This document shows positions 323 through 34,624 of a DNA stretch of 38,853 nt, one piece after another. The first letter of the stretch is position 1; every line of letters starts with the position of its first letter. The stretch is from a virus. The notes beneath the pieces were generated by a model, which was given only the letters and a program-made list of their open reading frames with translations, was not told the DNA's origin and made no database searches. Location: positions 1 to 38,853 of IMG/VR virus record IMGVR_UViG_3300042691_044686, one strand, 5' to 3'. The position numbers and the translations under genes are program-made.

Positions 323-745
323 TTATAAATTAATTTCAAACCGATCTTTCATTTGTTTTACTTTATCTTCTGGTACTTCATGAATATTTGAATTACCATG
401 TCTATTTTCAACAATAACGGAATGAATTCTATAATTATATCTCTCCGCCATTTCAAAATATGGTTTCATTTCCCATTCTTGAGTAAACGTGTTTGCAACA
501 ACAATTTTATATGACCCATTTTTCATAGCCTCAGCGCATGTCTGCTGACACATATTATGAGCTTGTTTTAATTTTGTTGCATCAAAATTATAGTTACCGT
601 TATTATCCATAAAAAAATCATCAGCAGATAATACCAGATTATTTGTTGATTGTGGTGACTTTAAAATTGCTTCTCCTAAAGTGGTTTTACCTGAACCTGG
701 TACACCTCTCAATAGAATTAAGTCTCCAGTATACTCTTTTTCCAT
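323..745 (-). CDS. P-loop polynucleotide kinase-like protein (AAA_33 type)
   Basis: 140 aa. Walker A is GVPGSGKT at residues 14-21, followed by SADDFF near 40-45, then ANTFTQEWEM and a C-terminal HEVPEDKVKQMKDRFE. This arrangement is typical of small P-loop kinases of the AAA_33/N4BP2L1-like group, related to the kinase half of T4 polynucleotide kinase. No phosphatase domain is present, so at most it is a 5'-kinase. The ATG shares its A with the stop of the preceding small membrane-protein gene (TAATG), implying translational coupling. The RNA ligase gene follows 60 bases downstream on the same strand. A job in end-healing of cleaved RNA before ligation is plausible, but substrate specificity cannot be read from the sequence. 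Confidence 0.8.
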   Translation of the reverse strand: MEKEYTGDLILLRGVPGSGKTTLGEAILKSPQSTNNLVLSADDFFMDNNGNYNFDATKLKQAHNMCQQTCAEAMKNGSYKIVVANTFTQEWEMKPYFEMAERYNYRIHSVIVENRHGNSNIHEVPEDKVKQMKDRFEINL

Positions 746-1215: not shown

Positions 1216-1245
1216 AAAAAAAACCCCAACAGGATGTCGGGGTTT
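1216..1245 (-). terminator. Rho-independent terminator downstream of the clp gene
   Basis: The stem pairs AAACCCC (1221-1227) with GGGGTTT (1239-1245) around an 11-base loop. On the minus strand it runs straight into a T-rich tract. It lies about 120 bases past the clp stop codon and before the lipoprotein gene. Confidence 0.75.
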
Positions 1246-1367: not shown

Positions 1368-3389
1368 CTAAATAATTTTTGTTTTTATCTGTAATGTTTC
1401 TTTAAAAGTTAGTTTAATTGAGACCTCTGCAAGAATATTCCCTTTCAAAATTTCATCACTAATAAAATCTTCACATAAAGATTGAATTATTCTTTTTATT
1501 GGTCTGGCGCCATATGAATTATCGGTGTTCCTACTTAGAACTTCGTTAGTAACTGTTTGGTCAAACGAGATTATATATTTCTTCTCTTTTAGCCTTTTAA
1601 CTAATTTATCCAATTCTAATTTTATAATTTTTTTCAAAGATTCTTGCTCAAGTGCATCAAATAATATTACATCGTCAATTCGATTAAGAAATTCTGGATT
1701 AAATTGTTGTTTTAAGGATTTTTGAATCATGGTTCTTTTCACATCTTCTTTTTGAGCTTCGCTTGTACTGGTTGAGAACCCTACTCCGGAACCAAATTCA
1801 GAAACCTTTTTTGCGCCAACATTTGATGTCATGATGATTAATGTATTCGCGAAATTTACTTTTCTACCAAAAGAATCTGTCAAATGTCCTTCATCAAGAA
1901 TCTGCAATAGTATATTGAACACATCTTTATGGGCCTTTTCAATTTCATCAAATAAAATAACAGAAAATGGATTATTTTTTATTTTTTCTGTGAGTTGACC
2001 ACCTTCATCATAACCAACATATCCTGGAGGAGATCCAATTAGTCTAGATACTGAGTGTTTTTCCATAAACTCACTCATATCAACACGCACAACTTTATCT
2101 TTTGAACCAAAAATTTGTTCTGCTAATGTTTTTGCTAAGTGTGTTTTACCAACGCCTGTAGACCCAAGAAAAATAAATGAACCGATTGGTTTAGATCCAT
2201 CTTTAATACCAACCCTGTTTCTACGAATGGCTTTAGAAATAGTTGATATTGCCTTATCCTGACCAATGACTCTTTCAGATAAATTTGTTTCAAGGTTTAG
2301 TAAATTATTTGTTTCCTTGTTGTCTATTTTAAAAATTGGTATACCGGTAATTGATGAGATAATGGTATATACATCTTCAATGGTTACTGGAATTAAGTTA
2401 TTCTTTAACTTATCTAACCATTTGCTCTTTTCATCATTTAATTTCTTTTCTAATTTTTTTTCCTCGTCCCTTAGATTTGCGGCAACCTCATAATCTTGTT
2501 TTCTAACAACCTCAATTTTTCTTTGTCTCAATGAGTCGATTTCATTATTTAATTTTTCAATTGATTCAGGAATCTTAGTTGTTACCCTTTTTTCAGAACC
2601 AAGTTCATCTAAAACGTCAATAGCTTTATCTGGAAACTGTCTGTCTGTGATATATCTAGCACATAGTCTGACAATGGTTTCAATAACTTCCGCTTGATAT
2701 TCTACTTTATGATAGTTTTGATAAGATTCTTTTAAATTATCTAATATCTCAATTGTTTCTTCTTCTGTTGGTTCGTCTAAAATTATTTTTTGAAATCTTC
2801 TAACTAACGCGCCATCTTTTTCAATATGTTTTTTGTATTCATCAAAAGTTGTTGCACCAATGCATTGAATCTCTCCTCTGGCTAATGCTGGTTTTAAAAT
2901 ATTTGCTGCGTCCATTGAACCACTAGCATTTCCGGCACCAACCATTGTATGTAATTCATCAATAAAAACAATAATATCTTTATTTTCCTGTAATTCAGCT
3001 AATATTGCCTTTATTCTCTCTTCAAATTGACCACGGTATTTTGTGCCAGCAACAAGTGATGTCAAATCTAAAGAAACAATTCTTTTATCAATTAAACTTG
3101 TTGGGCAATCTCCATTTGATATTAGTAATGCCAGCTTTTCAACTAATGCCGATTTACCAACACCAGCCTCACCAACAATAATGGCGTTATTTTTTTTCTT
3201 TCTGGATAATATCTGCGCAATCCTTTTGACTTCCTTATCTCTACCGACTATCGGGTCAATACTCCCATCTTTCGCTAACCTATTTAGATCTCTTGAAAAA
3301 TTGTCCAGTACTGGTGTGTTGGATGTGTTTTTTCTAGGCTTTGTGTTTGGTTTTTGGTTTTCTTCGTAACCGAAATCTACTCCTGACAT
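1368..3389 (-). CDS. ClpC-type AAA+ unfoldase lacking the N-domain
   Basis: 673 aa with two AAA+ modules. D1 has Walker A GEAGVGKS (73-80) and Walker B VFIDE (141-145). D2 has Walker A GSTGVGKT (409-416), Walker B ILFDE (478-482), arginine-finger region FLNR (567-570) and sensor-2 GARPIKR (627-633). Pore loops are GTKYRG near 115 and GYVGY near 456. The linker at about 290-320 resembles a UVR motif and is far shorter than the ClpB M-domain. A VGF tripeptide (536-538) sits where ClpC and ClpA carry their ClpP-docking loop. The roughly 140-residue N-terminal adaptor domain of normal ClpC is missing; only about 30 low-complexity residues precede D1. No clpP occurs in the window, so it may partner with host ClpP. 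Divergent from hsp20. Confidence 0.92.
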   Translation of the reverse strand: MSGVDFGYEENQKPNTKPRKNTSNTPVLDNFSRDLNRLAKDGSIDPIVGRDKEVKRIAQILSRKKKNNAIIVGEAGVGKSALVEKLALLISNGDCPTSLIDKRIVSLDLTSLVAGTKYRGQFEERIKAILAELQENKDIIVFIDELHTMVGAGNASGSMDAANILKPALARGEIQCIGATTFDEYKKHIEKDGALVRRFQKIILDEPTEEETIEILDNLKESYQNYHKVEYQAEVIETIVRLCARYITDRQFPDKAIDVLDELGSEKRVTTKIPESIEKLNNEIDSLRQRKIEVVRKQDYEVAANLRDEEKKLEKKLNDEKSKWLDKLKNNLIPVTIEDVYTIISSITGIPIFKIDNKETNNLLNLETNLSERVIGQDKAISTISKAIRRNRVGIKDGSKPIGSFIFLGSTGVGKTHLAKTLAEQIFGSKDKVVRVDMSEFMEKHSVSRLIGSPPGYVGYDEGGQLTEKIKNNPFSVILFDEIEKAHKDVFNILLQILDEGHLTDSFGRKVNFANTLIIMTSNVGAKKVSEFGSGVGFSTSTSEAQKEDVKRTMIQKSLKQQFNPEFLNRIDDVILFDALEQESLKKIIKLELDKLVKRLKEKKYIISFDQTVTNEVLSRNTDNSYGARPIKRIIQSLCEDFISDEILKGNILAEVSIKLTFKETLQIKTKII

Positions 3390-3547
3390 ATCTTTTCTAA
3401 TTGTTTAGACAAACATAATGAAAAAAATTCACAAAAAAAACTAAAACTGTTGACAAAATGTCTGATAAAATATCTCAGCAATGTCTAAATGTCAGTTTTA
3501 TGTATTTGGTAACAAATTTGTAAAATATGTTTAAAAAAATATAATTT
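3390..3547. promoter_or_regulatory. Divergent clp/hsp20 control region with inverted repeat
   Basis: The 158 bases separate two divergently read proteostasis genes. TAAAACTG (3442-3449) is mirrored exactly by CAGTTTTA (3493-3500). Just inside lie TGACA (3451-3455) and TGTCA (3490-3494). A smaller palindrome, GACA-AAA-TGTC, is at 3452-3462, and AATGTCTAAATGTCA follows at 3480-3494. The layout suits a dimeric regulator or a cruciform. A weak host-like promoter for hsp20 is TTTG (3505-3508) with TATGTTTA (3526-3533). The repeat does not match the CIRCE element. Confidence 0.45.
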
Positions 3548-3916
3548 ATGGTAACATTATTTAAAGATCCGTTTTTTGATGTTATGGACAAAGTGTTCGA
3601 AACATCTCGTGCTACATTTAGCCCACAGACAAGAATTCGCAAAAACGAAAGCGAATATAAACTTTTGATTTCCGTACCAGGTTTAACAAAAGATGATTTA
3701 AAGATTTCAACTAAAGATGGAATTTTAAAAATAACTTTTGAGAATAAACCTGAGGAGGGTGAATTAAACTTTGTTGGTTCTTTTACGAAGGTTTACACCA
3801 TCCCGGATGATGTTAAAGATAAGGACATTTTAGGTAGGGTTGAAAATGGTGTCCTAGAATTAACATTACCAATAGATAAGAAAAAATCTATTGAAAGGTT
3901 AATATCGTTAAATTAA
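3548..3916 (+). CDS. Small heat-shock protein (Hsp20 / alpha-crystallin family)
   Basis: 122 aa. The alpha-crystallin domain spans about 30-115. Seen are YKLLISVPGLTKDDLKIST (38-56), GILKITFE (58-65) and the hallmark GVLELTLP (101-108). The N-terminal arm is only about 30 residues, short for the family. sHsps are ATP-independent holdases that keep unfolded proteins soluble for refolding or degradation. Hsp20 genes are known in many T4-like phages, where they are thought to help virion protein folding. It is divergent from the clp gene, so the two probably share regulation. A strong terminator follows. Function is confident; the phage-specific client is unknown. Confidence 0.93.
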   Translation: MVTLFKDPFFDVMDKVFETSRATFSPQTRIRKNESEYKLLISVPGLTKDDLKISTKDGILKITFENKPEEGELNFVGSFTKVYTIPDDVKDKDILGRVENGVLELTLPIDKKKSIERLISLN

Positions 3917-3998: not shown

Positions 3999-4244
3999 AT
4001 GGCAATTATATCTGAAAGAATTGAAGGTAAAAAGATTCTCGTTGAAATTAAATCTAGTAACATAAAATCAGCATTATATGATACCGAAACAGAGGAGTTG
4101 TTGGTAACATTCAATAATGGTAATATTTATGGATATGATAAAGTTCCTTGGGAAGTCTTCACCAAATTTAGATTAGCGGAATCTCAGGGAGCATATCTTA
4201 ATTCAACAATAAAAAAGAATTACCAATATAAAAAAATAGTATAG
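3999..4244 (+). CDS. KTSC domain protein
   Basis: 81 aa. SSNIKSALYDTETEELLVTF (19-38), GNIYGYDKVP (41-50) and ESQGAYLNSTIK (61-72) follow the layout of the KTSC domain, a small beta-rich fold common in phages and bacteria. Its biochemical role is not established. It is sometimes fused to RNA-modifying or RNA-binding domains. The stop codon shares its last base with the GTG start of the nucleotidyltransferase gene (TAGTG), so the two are probably made together. Family assignment is good; function is open. Confidence 0.8.
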   Translation: MAIISERIEGKKILVEIKSSNIKSALYDTETEELLVTFNNGNIYGYDKVPWEVFTKFRLAESQGAYLNSTIKKNYQYKKIV

Positions 4245-5020
4245 TGCAAAATTTAATAGATGAACTTTTAGAATTATCTGACCCAGAGGTTGATAATAAG
4301 ATTATAAAATCTTTTAAACTAAAGGATCATCTTTGTCCATTAATTTTTGATGGAAATGAAAGTGATGGTTATACCATAAAAAATGATATCCGAACTAAAT
4401 TGGTTGAGATTTCAGATCAATTTATTGATTTCTGGGGTGTTGAGTTTTTTATTCACGACATAATTTTAACGGGTTCATTAGCAAACTATAACTGGTCAGA
4501 ATATTCTGATGTTGACTTACACATCTTAGTTGATGTTACGGAGCTTGGTGAAAGTAAGGTATTGATTGATATTGTTAAAGAATTTTTTGACGCCAAGAAA
4601 AATGTGTGGAACGAAAAGCATAATGTGAAGATTAAGGGATTTGATGTTGAGCTTTATGTTCAAGATATAAATGAACCACACGTATCGTCGGGGGTTTATT
4701 CGGTATTAAACAATGAATGGGTTGTTGAACCGTCTATGCAAAAGGAATCGATTGATACGCAAAAGATTTTAGACAAGGGTGAATATTTTGCTAAACAAAT
4801 AGATAAGCTAATCAATGATTATAGACAAAATAAGGATATTTCAAACGAAGAAGAGACCTTAAGAGATAAACTAAAAAAGTTTAGGAAGAGTGGTTTAGAG
4901 GGTGGTGGGGAATACTCTTATGAAAATTTAACATTCAAATTACTTAGAAGAAATGGGTACATCGAAAAATTAATGAATCTTAGAAACGATGTGATCGATA
5001 AAAAATTATCCGTATCGTAA
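4244..5020 (+). CDS. Nucleotidyltransferase-fold protein
   Basis: 258 aa, GTG start overlapping the KTSC stop codon. The Pol-beta-type nucleotidyltransferase signature GS-x10-DVD is clear: TGSLANYNWSEYSDVDLHIL (76-95), giving G77-S78 and the metal-binding pair D89/D91. A likely third carboxylate is D134 in GFDVELYV. The C-terminal 90 residues are helical and charged. This family includes nucleic-acid, protein and antibiotic nucleotidyltransferases. The substrate cannot be told here. It is not full-length CCA-adding enzyme, and no HEPN partner is nearby, so a MNT/HEPN toxin-antitoxin reading is not supported. Confidence 0.75.
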   Translation: MQNLIDELLELSDPEVDNKIIKSFKLKDHLCPLIFDGNESDGYTIKNDIRTKLVEISDQFIDFWGVEFFIHDIILTGSLANYNWSEYSDVDLHILVDVTELGESKVLIDIVKEFFDAKKNVWNEKHNVKIKGFDVELYVQDINEPHVSSGVYSVLNNEWVVEPSMQKESIDTQKILDKGEYFAKQIDKLINDYRQNKDISNEEETLRDKLKKFRKSGLEGGGEYSYENLTFKLLRRNGYIEKLMNLRNDVIDKKLSVS

Positions 5021-8600: not shown

Positions 8601-10385
8601 ATGAACAACAAAATTGAACAATTAAAGGAATATGCACGTATCATTAAAGATACCCCATATGCATTGAAGACATATCTTCAAACATATGATAACACTCAAA
8701 AAAAATATGTTCCATTAGAATTATTTCCGGACCAGATTCAGCTACTCAGGGACTATGAGCAGTATAATGAAAATATTACTAGAAAATATAGACAGGCTGG
8801 GGTTACCACGGTTACTGCAGCATGGATTTCAAAGAGGTTGCAATTAGCAAAACCAGAAAATCCGGAGAGGGTTCTAATTATTGCCAACAAGAGGGATACA
8901 GCAATTGAAATGGCTAATAAAGTCCGAAATTTTTTAGATCAGTGGCCAGATTGGATTAATGTTGGTTTCTCGGTAGATAAAAACTCTGAAAGTAGGTATC
9001 GTTTGAATAATGGGTGTGAAGTTAAGGCGGTTGCGACTTCTGCGGATGCGTTACGTGGTTATACCCCAACTATACTTGTATTTGATGAGGCGGCATATAT
9101 TGAGGCTGGAGAGGATTTCTGGGCGGCGTCCATGGCATCCCTATCAACCGGAGGTAAAATTATTCTTATCTCAACTCCGAATGGTTATGACCCAATTTAT
9201 TATGGGGTATATGAACAAGCAATTAGAGGTATAAACGACTTCCATATAACTGATTTAAGATGGTTTAAAGATCCAAGATATACTAAGGATTTAAAATGGT
9301 TAAAAGTACCTGACATTGTTCATTATATGTTAAATAGAGAACAATACAGCGATACGGAAATAACTTTAGATGTACCTGATTATGATTTGATGAAATATCA
9401 GGAATATATGGATCAGGGATACCAACCGTATTCAAGTTGGTTTGAATCCATGTCCAAAAAATTCAAGTATGATAAGAGAAAAATTGCACAAGAACTTGAA
9501 TGTGATTTCTTAGGATCTGGTGATAGTGTTATTCCTTCAGAAACTATGGAAAGGATTGCTAAAACAATGATTAAACCAGCTAAAGAGAAGTATATGCAAG
9601 GGACTCTTTGGCAATGGGAAGAACCAAAAGAAGGTCATCGATATATTATGGGTGTTGACGTTTCTCGTGGTGATAGCGACGACTTTTCTTCGATAAACAT
9701 AATTGATTTTGATGATAGAGAACAAGTATTAGAATATGTTGGTAAAATTCCACCAGATGATTTAGCTTCGATCGCCTATAAATGGGGAATTCTTTATAAC
9801 TGTTTCATTGTAATTGATATTACCGGTGGTATGGGTGTTGCAACATCTAGAAAATTACAAGAGATGGGTTATAAGGATTTATTTGTTGATGGATTTAATA
9901 CTAAAAACGTGTGGGAGTACAACCAGAAAGCATTAGAAAAAATACCAGGCATAAATTTTAATAATAAAAGAACTCAGATAGTTGCGACTTTTGAAGAACA
10001 GTTAAGACATGGGTTTATTGTTAGATCTAATAGATTGTTAAATGAATTAAACACATTTGTTTATATTAATGGTAGACCTAATCACATGAAAGGTTCGCAT
10101 GATGACTCTATCATGAGTATTGCTATTGCGATGTATGCTGGTGACATATCTTTCACACAATTAAAAAGAAATGAAGAGCAGAATAAAGCTATGTTGGAAT
10201 CATGGGTTCTAAGTGAAAGAACATATGAAGCAGAAACATCTCATTATTCATATGGAGGATCTTTAGATCAGATTGGGGCGATGTCTATAGATGGATCTGC
10301 AAGTAGTATGACTGCAGGTTCTCCAACAAAAAACCAATATCAACAATATTCTTGGCTATTTGGTACAAATAAAAAGGGTTTATAA
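8601..10385 (+). CDS. Terminase large subunit (T4 gp17-like)
   Basis: 594 aa DNA-packaging motor. In the N-terminal ATPase, RKYRQAGVTT (61-70) stands in the Walker A position and ILVFDE (158-163) is Walker B. STPNG (191-195) is the coupling motif. IAQELECDFLGSGDSVI (296-312) matches the T4-family linker. The C-terminal RNase H-like nuclease has MGVDVSRGDSDDFSS (about 351-365), FIVIDITGG (about 403-411) and HDDSIMS (about 501-507), supplying the acidic residues. The Walker lysine usually found in GKTT is valine (GVTT). Nearby R61, K62 or R64 could substitute, as in deviant Walker motifs of other terminases. Length and order match gp17. It feeds DNA through the portal encoded next. Confidence 0.97.
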   Translation: MNNKIEQLKEYARIIKDTPYALKTYLQTYDNTQKKYVPLELFPDQIQLLRDYEQYNENITRKYRQAGVTTVTAAWISKRLQLAKPENPERVLIIANKRDTAIEMANKVRNFLDQWPDWINVGFSVDKNSESRYRLNNGCEVKAVATSADALRGYTPTILVFDEAAYIEAGEDFWAASMASLSTGGKIILISTPNGYDPIYYGVYEQAIRGINDFHITDLRWFKDPRYTKDLKWLKVPDIVHYMLNREQYSDTEITLDVPDYDLMKYQEYMDQGYQPYSSWFESMSKKFKYDKRKIAQELECDFLGSGDSVIPSETMERIAKTMIKPAKEKYMQGTLWQWEEPKEGHRYIMGVDVSRGDSDDFSSINIIDFDDREQVLEYVGKIPPDDLASIAYKWGILYNCFIVIDITGGMGVATSRKLQEMGYKDLFVDGFNTKNVWEYNQKALEKIPGINFNNKRTQIVATFEEQLRHGFIVRSNRLLNELNTFVYINGRPNHMKGSHDDSIMSIAIAMYAGDISFTQLKRNEEQNKAMLESWVLSERTYEAETSHYSYGGSLDQIGAMSIDGSASSMTAGSPTKNQYQQYSWLFGTNKKGL

Positions 10386-12235: not shown

Positions 12236-12973
12236 ATGAATAAGATTGGGGTTGTTAAAAGCAAAATTTTAAAGAAATTAACCGAATCGTTTGGTTCTGG
12301 TGAAAAATCTGAAATGAAACAAATTTTATCTAAAGTTGTTACAAATAAAGATTTTAAAGAAATGTATTTGTTTTATGAAGATATTGAAAACAAATATTTT
12401 GATAATTCTGAGGTTGCAAAATTATATGTTGAAGAACTTAATTCTGTATTGAAGAGTAAATCTAAAGTACTATCAACGTTTTGTAAAGAATTAAACGAAA
12501 CCCTTGGTGACATTGAATTTGAAACTAATGAACTTTATTCTTATCTGGATCAATTAACTGAAGATGATAGCTTAAGTAATTTAGACAAAAAAATTATTGC
12601 AAAAAAGAAATTGATTGAGCATTTAACAACGTCTAAAAATGTTGGTACGGAAGACAAACCAACATACACAACTAATGAAAATTTATTATACTCTGTTTTA
12701 GCTAATAACTTCAATACTCTTTATTCTGATAGATTAAATGAGAATCAAAAAGAAGAATTGAAAAATATTTTGTCTTTGAGTGATGAAGATTTAAATAAAA
12801 CCGTTCCAGAATTAAAAGAAGATATTTTATCTAAGGTAAATCTAATGCTTAACGAATCAAGCGATACCGAATTAAATGGTAAATTATCATCAGTGATATC
12901 TGAAGTTAATTCTATGAATGTCACCAAATACAATTATTTTAGATTAAAGCAATTGAAGGATGGTCTTAATTAA
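12236..12973 (+). CDS. Putative prohead core protein
   Basis: 245 aa, no firm homology recognised. The protein is almost wholly helical and rich in Lys, Glu, Asn and Leu, with no low-complexity linker. It lies two bases after portal, where T4 has the small core genes 67 and 68, before the protease. LNE tripeptides fit the (L/I)xE cleavage rule of gp21-type proteases (for example KELNET near 85 and RLNENQ near 165). Its last codons, KDGLN-stop, lie in a perfect palindrome shared with the convergent bS21 gene. The core assignment is from position and composition. Confidence 0.65.
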   Translation: MNKIGVVKSKILKKLTESFGSGEKSEMKQILSKVVTNKDFKEMYLFYEDIENKYFDNSEVAKLYVEELNSVLKSKSKVLSTFCKELNETLGDIEFETNELYSYLDQLTEDDSLSNLDKKIIAKKKLIEHLTTSKNVGTEDKPTYTTNENLLYSVLANNFNTLYSDRLNENQKEELKNILSLSDEDLNKTVPELKEDILSKVNLMLNESSDTELNGKLSSVISEVNSMNVTKYNYFRLKQLKDGLN

Positions 12974-12980
12974 GACCATC
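12959..12980. terminator. Perfect 22-base palindrome, convergent gene ends and terminator
   Basis: GATGGTCTTAA is followed directly by its exact reverse complement. One more G-T pair and two A-T pairs extend the stem. On the plus strand TTTTAATTTTT follows, so it looks like a terminator for the head operon. The minus-strand side has no clear T tract. The palindrome also encodes the end of both convergent genes. Confidence 0.8.
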
Positions 12981-13151
12981 TTTTAATTTTTGGATATATT
13001 TCGCTTTAATTATTTGATCTCTTTTTTTAACTGAGGGTTTTACAAATTCTTGTCGACTTCTCAACTCTTGGATTTGTTTTACTTTGTGCACTTTATTTTT
13101 GTATTGTTTTAGTGCGATCTCAATACCCTTTTTAACTTCAATTATTAACAT
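12966..13151 (-). CDS. rpsU: Ribosomal protein bS21, phage-encoded
   Basis: 61 aa. MLIIEVKKGIEIALKQYKNK, then QELRSRQEFVKPSVKKR and AKYIQKLKDG match the bacterial S21 fold, closest in style to Bacteroidota bS21 (start MLII, RSRQ-F-KPS, AYIQKL). It is about two residues shorter in the first loop. bS21 binds the 30S platform next to the 3' end of 16S rRNA. In Flavobacterium bS21, bS18 and bS6 hide the anti-Shine-Dalgarno. Tyr52 probably corresponds to the conserved tyrosine near position 54 used there. The gene is antisense inside the head cassette. The 27 bases before its ATG are only A or T, so it has no Shine-Dalgarno sequence. Family confidence is high; effect on translation is inferred. 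Confidence 0.9.
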   Translation of the reverse strand: MLIIEVKKGIEIALKQYKNKVHKVKQIQELRSRQEFVKPSVKKRDQIIKAKYIQKLKDGLN

Positions 13152-25421: not shown

Positions 25422-26120
25422 TTAATCTAAAAATCTACCCAAAACACCGTCATATAAGTTTTTATACTTTTTGAGTGATATTCGTATCTCCTTTGTTGAC
25501 AAAGATGTCATTTCTCTAAGAGATAGTAAAATAAGATTCTTATTGAATTTGTTACCATCACCAATTTGGAATATTTTTTCAAAATTGCTAAAAATCTCAA
25601 GTAGAGCATAACCTAATTTTTTTTCATTTTCAGTGAGCTCTTCCTGCTCAATAAAATCCTCTAATTTTTGAGATAGTTGTGTGATTACGTCGCCATAATC
25701 AATAAAACTCGCATCAATTGTGTAAGAAAAATCAACTCTAGATTCAATATCTTCGGAAATATCTTCATATGAGATACTTCGATTAGTTTCTTTACTATCT
25801 TTTTGTATGGCCCCCATTAAGTAATTCTTACATATGGTACCAAAATAAGAATATGCTTTATGGTTTTTTGTGTGATCAAATTTATTGATCTTGGTTATTA
25901 AAAAAGACATGGTGTCGGTATGAATTTCTTCAAATTCCATGTCTTTTCTATATAATTTGTAACGTCGAATTATTGATTCGACCATTATTACTAGGGGTTC
26001 TCTTAAATATTCATTGAATATCTTATTTCTTTCTGCTTCATCACTACTTTCTAGGTAATTGACTACCGCCTTTTCTTGATCCTCCCCAAAATAAACTTTT
26101 TGGGTTCGTTTTCTAGGCAT
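25422..26120 (-). CDS. Late-transcription sigma factor (T4 gp55-like)
   Basis: 232 aa. The region INKFDHTKNHKAYSYFGTIC, then KNYLMGAIQKDSKE (78-111), is the -10-recognition core (region 2.2-2.4) of a sigma-70-type protein. An upstream helix (NEYLREPLVIMVESIIRRYK, 36-55) serves as region 1.2/2.1. There is no region 4, as expected for T4 gp55, which depends on a co-activator and reads only a -10 box. It overlaps the next gene's start (shared base 26120). The promoter-like TATTTATA boxes before virion genes are candidate targets. The sigma call is well supported; targets are inferred. Confidence 0.8.
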   Translation of the reverse strand: MPRKRTQKVYFGEDQEKAVVNYLESSDEAERNKIFNEYLREPLVIMVESIIRRYKLYRKDMEFEEIHTDTMSFLITKINKFDHTKNHKAYSYFGTICKNYLMGAIQKDSKETNRSISYEDISEDIESRVDFSYTIDASFIDYGDVITQLSQKLEDFIEQEELTENEKKLGYALLEIFSNFEKIFQIGDGNKFNKNLILLSLREMTSLSTKEIRISLKKYKNLYDGVLGRFLD

Positions 26121-33967: not shown

Positions 33968-34624
33968 TTAAAAATCTGGGTATCTTTTAGCTTCTCCGTA
34001 TTTGTTTCTTGAAACGGATTCTGTTCTAACATTGATATCTACAGAAGAACCGACTAGATTATTATTTTCCCCTTTACCCTTTTCATCACCATCAGATAAC
34101 GCATTTGGGTGTATACTAGAATATCCTTTGTTTGCATTATATTGATTTCTGGCCATGCTTTCGGTTCTAACATTTATATCCGTTAATGATCCAATTTTAC
34201 CATCTTTTTCTCCCTTACCCTTTTCATCACCATCTGACAACGCATTTAGGTTTTGAGAATTATATTGTTTTGCTGAACCATAGATATTTCTAGATAATAA
34301 TTCAGTTCTAGTATTGATGTCAGTTTGTGAACCAATAGTCGTGGTTAAACCTTTACCCTTTTCATCACCGTCAGATAATGCATTAGGATTATTTGAATTA
34401 TATTGATTATTTGTTGAATACGTATTTTTAACAGTATTACTAATTCTAGCTTGAATATCTTCAGAGGAGCCAATGTTACCATTATTCTCTCCCTTACCTT
34501 TTTCATCACCATCAGACAATGCGTTCGGATTGTTAACACCATAACCAGAATCAGAAACGTATGCATTTCTTGATAAGTGTGCTTGTCTTTGTTGTTCTGC
34601 GATTAGCTCTAGTTGTGTCGCCAT
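33968..34624 (-). CDS. Protein built of tandem 46-47-residue repeats
   Basis: 218 aa. Four full copies and a partial fifth of a unit. Each carries NALSDGDEKGKG, a Gly/Ser break (IGS or VGS), DIN-RTE and an SRN-Y tract. The shared DNA core (TTTTCATCACC) recurs at 34080, 34221, 34359 and 34500, spacing 141, 138 and 141 bases. DGDEKGKG resembles calcium-binding DxDxxxG loops, but the full EF-hand is absent. Copies have diverged at synonymous and other positions, so protein selection, not recent duplication, keeps the motif. No family recognised. Probably a virion surface or internal protein. Confidence 0.7.
   Translation of the reverse strand: MATQLELIAEQQRQAHLSRNAYVSDSGYGVNNPNALSDGDEKGKGENNGNIGSSEDIQARISNTVKNTYSTNNQYNSNNPNALSDGDEKGKGLTTTIGSQTDINTRTELLSRNIYGSAKQYNSQNLNALSDGDEKGKGEKDGKIGSLTDINVRTESMARNQYNANKGYSSIHPNALSDGDEKGKGENNNLVGSSVDINVRTESVSRNKYGEAKRYPDF
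34080..34511 (-). repeat. Tandem coding repeat, period 138-141 bases
   Basis: Four copies of the NALSDGDEKGKG coding core. Copy-to-copy distance is 141, 138 and 141 bases (47, 46 and 47 codons). All copies remain in frame. No CRISPR-like spacer organisation. Confidence 0.85.

Follow-up and report, generated by a model that had tools for sequence, protein, structure and literature searches.

In Staphylococcus aureus, the N-domain represses the unfoldase ClpC: its deletion raises ATPase activity and gives planar hexamers, and the truncated (ΔN) protein no longer needs MecA to bind ClpP, which it does in rods made of rings paired head to head (PMC12583610). With an intact M-domain, however, ΔN ClpC does not degrade FITC-casein or GFP-SsrA, and does so only when Phe436 is also mutated; this double mutant is more toxic than the single F436A, and activating mutations that free ClpC from N-domain control are toxic to cells (PMC12583610). 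In Mycobacterium tuberculosis, ClpC1 lacking the N-terminal domain still binds ClpS via its M-domain (PMC6274998). Phage intervention in ClpCP proteolysis has been described for SPO1, whose Gp53 is an adaptor-like protein that binds host ClpC and is not itself a ClpC (PMC6873191). Phage Clp ATPases and phage ClpP are also known already, and Clp genes of jumbo phages have been reported (PMC7824862, PMC6102473).

We analyzed a viral sequence of 38,853 bp (hereafter the window), a fragment from IMG/VR, in which the original prediction had placed a ClpC-like unfoldase at 1368-3389 without naming a strand. The plus strand is riddled with stops over this interval, and the real open reading frame lies on the minus strand. 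The gene and its parts are as follows:

1368..3389, minus strand: clpC-like gene, 673 aa, encoding an N-domain-less double-ring AAA+ unfoldase (Pfam, phmmer, AlphaFold)
3324..3389, minus strand: disordered N-terminal tail, residues 1-22 (pLDDT < 50; alignment of starts)
2580..3323, minus strand: first AAA+ module (D1), about residues 23-270 (Pfam, alignment)
2400..2567, minus strand: M-domain coiled coil with UVR motif, about residues 275-330 (Pfam, alignment, model)
1425..2318, minus strand: second AAA+ module (D2), about residues 358-655 (Pfam, alignment)
1776..1784, minus strand: VGF tripeptide (536-538) of the ClpP-docking loop (alignment; unstructured in the model)
1221..1245, minus strand: intrinsic-terminator-like hairpin just 3' of clpC (consensus match only)
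3390..3547, no strand: intergenic DNA separating clpC from the divergent hsp20, encoding no N-domain

Pfam recognized AAA, AAA_lid_9, UVR motif, AAA_2 and ClpB_D2-small matches in the 673-aa protein, and no Clp_N. The two AAA+ modules that had been called intact are so at the level of Walker, finger and pore residues, with Walker A K79, Walker B D144/E145, R197/R198 and the pore loop KYR (117-119) in D1, and K415, D481/E482, the pore loop GYVG (456-459), R570 and R629 in D2. The UVR motif (PF02151) covers residues 282-316, the coiled coil residues 275-330 of an AlphaFold model (mean pLDDT 78), and the M-domain residues Y300, R307 and D308 align with S. aureus F436, R443 and D444. V536-G537-F538 falls at the aligned ClpP-loop position, exactly as predicted; burial of this loop, which would have spoken against docking, is not what the model displays, since residues 534-541 are unstructured (pLDDT < 50). 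The best structural matches of the model were ClpC chains from ClpCP complexes, and in a phmmer search against the PDB the first hit was S. aureus ClpC, whose residues 149-788 aligned with query 13-654.

With intact Walker A/B motifs and arginine fingers in both modules, the protein belongs to Hsp100 class I, where its short UVR M-domain is that of ClpC and neither the long M-domain of ClpB nor the M-less arrangement of ClpA. D2 carries the [VIL]G[FL] ClpP-docking loop, and in the tree phage ClpC groups with ClpC, separately from ClpB. One ClpC hallmark, the double Clp_N N-terminus, is missing from the window protein and from 87 homologues. A ClpB disaggregase was rejected, as the long M-domain is absent, the ClpP loop (missing from the ClpB sequences compared) is present, and the NCBIfam ClpB score was 807 against a cut-off of 1232. 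ClpA was rejected as well (TIGR02639 score 716 against a cut-off of 993; M-domain present).

The absence of an N-domain was confirmed. Residues 1-22 stand in place of the ~150-aa N-domain and align with the pre-D1 linker of Bacteroidota ClpC, and upstream of clpC no N-domain is encoded, the frames being broken by stops and the DNA being common to the divergent Hsp20 gene. A hidden, frameshifted or split N-domain was discarded on these grounds, together with the lack of Clp_N within the gene or as a stand-alone domain in 11 long related contigs. None of the 87 viral homologues examined has an N-domain, and each retains a [VILM]GF loop. Phage ClpC proteins extend at most 23 aa beyond the start of the window protein, whereas each ClpC compared from Bacteroidota (35) and from other bacteria (61) has an extension of more than 85 aa. 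The [VILM]GF loop and residues Y300/R307/D308 are each kept in 88/88 phage sequences, G537 and F538 likewise (and in 35/35 Bacteroidota ClpC), and the Walker A/B, arginine-finger and pore-loop residues vary little or not at all across the 88. These sequences correspond to 63 distinct alignment rows and many contigs are close kin, so that the counts are not independent events. Values of dN/dS between 0.04 and 0.12, with dS near saturation, indicate that clpC is under purifying selection, and the observation is not due to chance.

We compared the phage protein with its nearest described counterparts. It shares with bacterial ClpC (S. aureus 6EM8/9RAI, B. subtilis, Bacteroidota) the two AAA+ modules, the UVR M-domain, the head-to-head contact residues, the [VILM]GF loop and ~50-55% identity, but bacterial ClpC has the N-domain, whereas the phage form lacks it and is phage-encoded. 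The engineered S. aureus ΔN ClpC has the same D1-M-D2 content and an aromatic residue at 436, but it is a laboratory truncation, whereas the phage form is natural and clade-wide, has Tyr for Phe and is linked to a ClpP (PMC12583610). The isolated jumbo phages RaK2, GAP32, PA5oct, Atu_ph07 and qdvp001 also combine a double-ring Hsp100 with a ClpP-family match in the genome; unlike the window protein, their Clp ATPases keep an N-terminal extension of 119-160 aa (34-38% identity). Closer are the ClpC proteins of two uncultured huge phages of 642 and 635 kb (LR756502, LR745206), which are N-domain-less, have a VGF loop and a ClpP in the genome, and are 53% identical.

The original prediction further held that there is no phage ClpP and that the unfoldase relies on the host's. 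No ClpP is encoded within the 38,853-bp window, so the first statement stands for the record; it does not stand for the lineage, whose sufficiently long contigs all have ClpP. When 21 longer related contigs were examined, ClpP (PF00574, E 1e-56 to 1e-60) was found in six, that is, in every ClpC contig with enough DNA, always on the strand opposite clpC and 103.6-121.8 kb upstream of it (in L053 the distance, 120 kb, is counted round a circle). The 15 contigs without ClpP have at most ~101 kb of upstream DNA, where positions were computed. A converse search found N-less clpC at 104-127 kb in 7/7 ClpP contigs with at least 121 kb of 5' DNA and in 0/10 with less (one of these, at 108 kb, being a borderline case). 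On the upstream (right) side of clpC the window holds only ~35.5 kb, while the nearest relative (L001, 85% identity) has ClpP at 103.6 kb. The apparent lack of a phage ClpP is thus explained by the record being a 39-kb fragment, and, going by its relatives, the window's own phage is expected to encode ClpP ~104-127 kb upstream of clpC, past the window's right end. Being more than 100 kb apart, clpC and clpP form no operon; neither a second Hsp100 nor ClpX was found in the long contigs.

The phage ClpP has an intact catalytic triad (Ser97/His122/Asp171, E. coli numbering) in 86/86 sequences, which comprise 53 distinct alignment rows. At Tyr62 (E. coli numbering) all 86 have His, whereas 29 of 30 host ClpP have Tyr, and the docking pocket also has Met for Leu48. 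In S. aureus ClpP, Ala at the Tyr62 position makes the protease constitutively active (PMC9035409, PMC6853987). As a group, pocket substitutions are not enriched among the ClpP changes specific to the phages (3/10 pocket against 27/183 other positions, p = 0.19), and Tyr62-to-His was therefore kept as the sole lead. For the list of pocket residues and the E. coli ClpP sequence used here, the catalytic-triad numbering served as the only check. His at Tyr62 and Met at Leu48 could make docking weaker. Separately, the phage clpP loci L081-L086 and L168-L247 have Asp at E. coli Asn64, a nearly invariant Asn in host ClpP. An AlphaFold model of phage ClpP was discarded (pLDDT 34).

Phage ClpC forms one clade (100/100), next to Bacteroidota ClpC (98/97), and the phage ClpP clade nests within Bacteroidota ClpP. 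The ClpC of LR756502 and LR745206 is placed inside Bacteroidota ClpC, and its N-domain loss is possibly separate from that of the window clade, judging by the tree. Several independent losses were not adopted: the tree hints at them, but a single N-less clade survives the AU test (p = 0.26; 0.59 with a quick tree). For the huge phages, an N-domain concealed by an alternative genetic code was also discarded, since stops fill the upstream frames. Two further huge phages (L318, L320) have N-less ClpC of uncertain tree place. INPHARED matches in small Listeria, Enterococcus and Staphylococcus phage records and in fecal records were left out as probable bacterial DNA; several "phage" records, among them OR848744, OR846612 and MT836804, appear to hold bacterial ClpC/ClpB genes, which suggests host contamination of the collection.

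The fragment carries a T4-type terminase, prohead protease, PhoH, dUTPase and bS21, and belongs to a bS21-type myophage of ~0.3 Mb. The host is taken to be a bacterium of the Bacteroidota, and phage ClpC and ClpP both show affinity to Bacteroidota sequences. The neighboring genes that bear on lineage and function are:

3548..3916, plus strand: Hsp20 small heat-shock protein, divergent neighbor of clpC (Pfam PF00011)
8601..10385, plus strand: T4-type large terminase (homologue in 76/80 related loci)
12966..13151, minus strand: bS21 gene, embedded among the structural genes but read from the other strand, a lineage marker of bS21-encoding Bacteroidetes myophages (PF01165; PMC9723584)

In the accessible part of their description, phages of 293-331 kb predicted to infect Bacteroidetes have the same gene arrangement with a reverse-strand bS21, and that part describes neither N-domain loss nor a ClpC-ClpP pairing (PMC9723584). 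The loci of our relatives end about where bS21 would start, and bS21 is unseen there. The "moraphage" lineage has a ClpA-annotated core gene (PMC12619734). Elsewhere in the window, 323-745 (minus strand), near the fragment end, encodes a small AAA_33/zeta-toxin-like P-loop kinase, and 4244-5020 (plus strand), near hsp20, an NTP_transf_2 nucleotidyltransferase-domain protein. A weak Sigma70_r2 match below the cut-off at 25422-26120 (minus strand) is possibly a late sigma factor. At 33968-34624 (minus strand), a 218-aa protein has four ~47-aa repeats, each with NALSDGDEKGKG, and its gene has 81-nt direct repeats at 138-141-nt spacing.

As for host adaptors, MecA, which had been proposed as relevant, is absent from 80/80 Bacteroidota genomes, while ClpS is present in 77/80; the relevant host adaptor is therefore probably ClpS. 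The proposed loss of host adaptor control is likely, and is made less than certain by the binding of ClpS to ΔNTD ClpC1. The suggestion that the phage supplies its own adaptor found no match: no such protein was found, and ClpS is missing from six long phage contigs.

Together, these observations make it probable that clpC supplies the unfoldase of a phage-encoded, N-domain-less ClpCP protease of Bacteroidota origin. In keeping with this, nine of the ten giant phages compared outside this lineage whose genomes have a Clp ATPase also have a ClpP-family match, although some weak ones may be other ClpP-fold peptidases. Its domain content, the clade-wide loss of the N-domain, the conserved loop and catalytic residues, the linkage to a clpP with an intact triad, the Bacteroidota affinity and the purifying selection are all read from the sequences; from these we infer a ClpP in this particular phage, assembly of the complex, proteolysis, its targets and release from host control. 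Six ClpC subunits would assemble into a ring that docks on phage ClpP through its VGF loops, and substrates would pass the intact pore loops and then be degraded. Without the N-domain there would be no N-domain-stabilized resting spiral and no usual control by those host adaptors that act on the N-domain, which in Bacteroidota means ClpS. Substrates would then have to be recognized by the pore itself, through the M-domain or with the help of a phage adaptor. By analogy with S. aureus ΔN ClpC, the retained contacts Y300/R307/D308 predict head-to-head ring pairs; as that protein is inactive on its test substrates, activity of the phage ClpC is not guaranteed, and it may depend on a further phage factor or be tuned differently by the Tyr.

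Docking on host ClpP to redirect or block host proteolysis, as the original prediction had it, could draw on a docking tripeptide that resembles that of host ClpC, on the presence of ClpP in 80/80 Bacteroidota genomes (with Tyr62 in 29 of the 30 examined) and on the adaptor-free binding of ClpP by S. aureus ΔN ClpC. Since the lineage has its own ClpP wherever a contig reaches far enough, such a hijack is not the best reading and we consider it unlikely; docking on both ClpPs is possible, and host docking may be an extra activity. The gene neighborhood suggests another role: Hsp20 is divergent from and adjacent to clpC in the window and in 44/80 related loci, clpC adjoins packaging genes, and virion assembly has been put forward as a function of jumbo-phage ClpA/ClpX (PMC7824862). 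A ClpP-independent chaperone or disaggregase working with Hsp20, for example in virion assembly, with Hsp20 holding aggregates and the Hsp100 extracting them, nevertheless seems improbable, because Hsp20 goes undetected in 36/80 loci, which also led us to reject an obligate Hsp20-Clp pair, yet the ClpP loop is invariant, a loop that the compared ClpB sequences lack, and the linked clpP has a fixed location.

The invariance of Y300/R307/D308, which match the S. aureus head-to-head contacts, would also suit a regulatory partner, in which N-less phage subunits mix with host ClpC or pair with it through the M-domain and derail its resting state. We regard this as very improbable, since every ATPase residue is kept, beyond what a dominant-negative subunit needs, and clpP co-occurs. 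A further reading, bolder and rather unlikely, extends the phage ClpCP protease to a private, adaptor-independent machine with a docking interface that has drifted away from that of the host (the invariant His at Tyr62), in which N-domain loss is a recurrent giant-phage adaptation and head-to-head ring pairs or ClpC-ClpP rods, arising in the course of infection, clear host proteins; the loss would then free ClpC from autoinhibition by the N-domain as well as from host ClpS.

Clade-wide N-domain loss and a linked ClpP with an invariant His at Tyr62 appear unreported in the literature searched. A widespread clade of aquatic Bacteroidota phages appears to have deleted the repressive N-domain of ClpC while keeping the unfolding and ClpP-docking parts and its own ClpP. 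If true, this would provide a natural experiment on the roles of the N-domain and of the ClpP gatekeeper pocket, and the use that phages make of their own Clp proteases would become directly testable.
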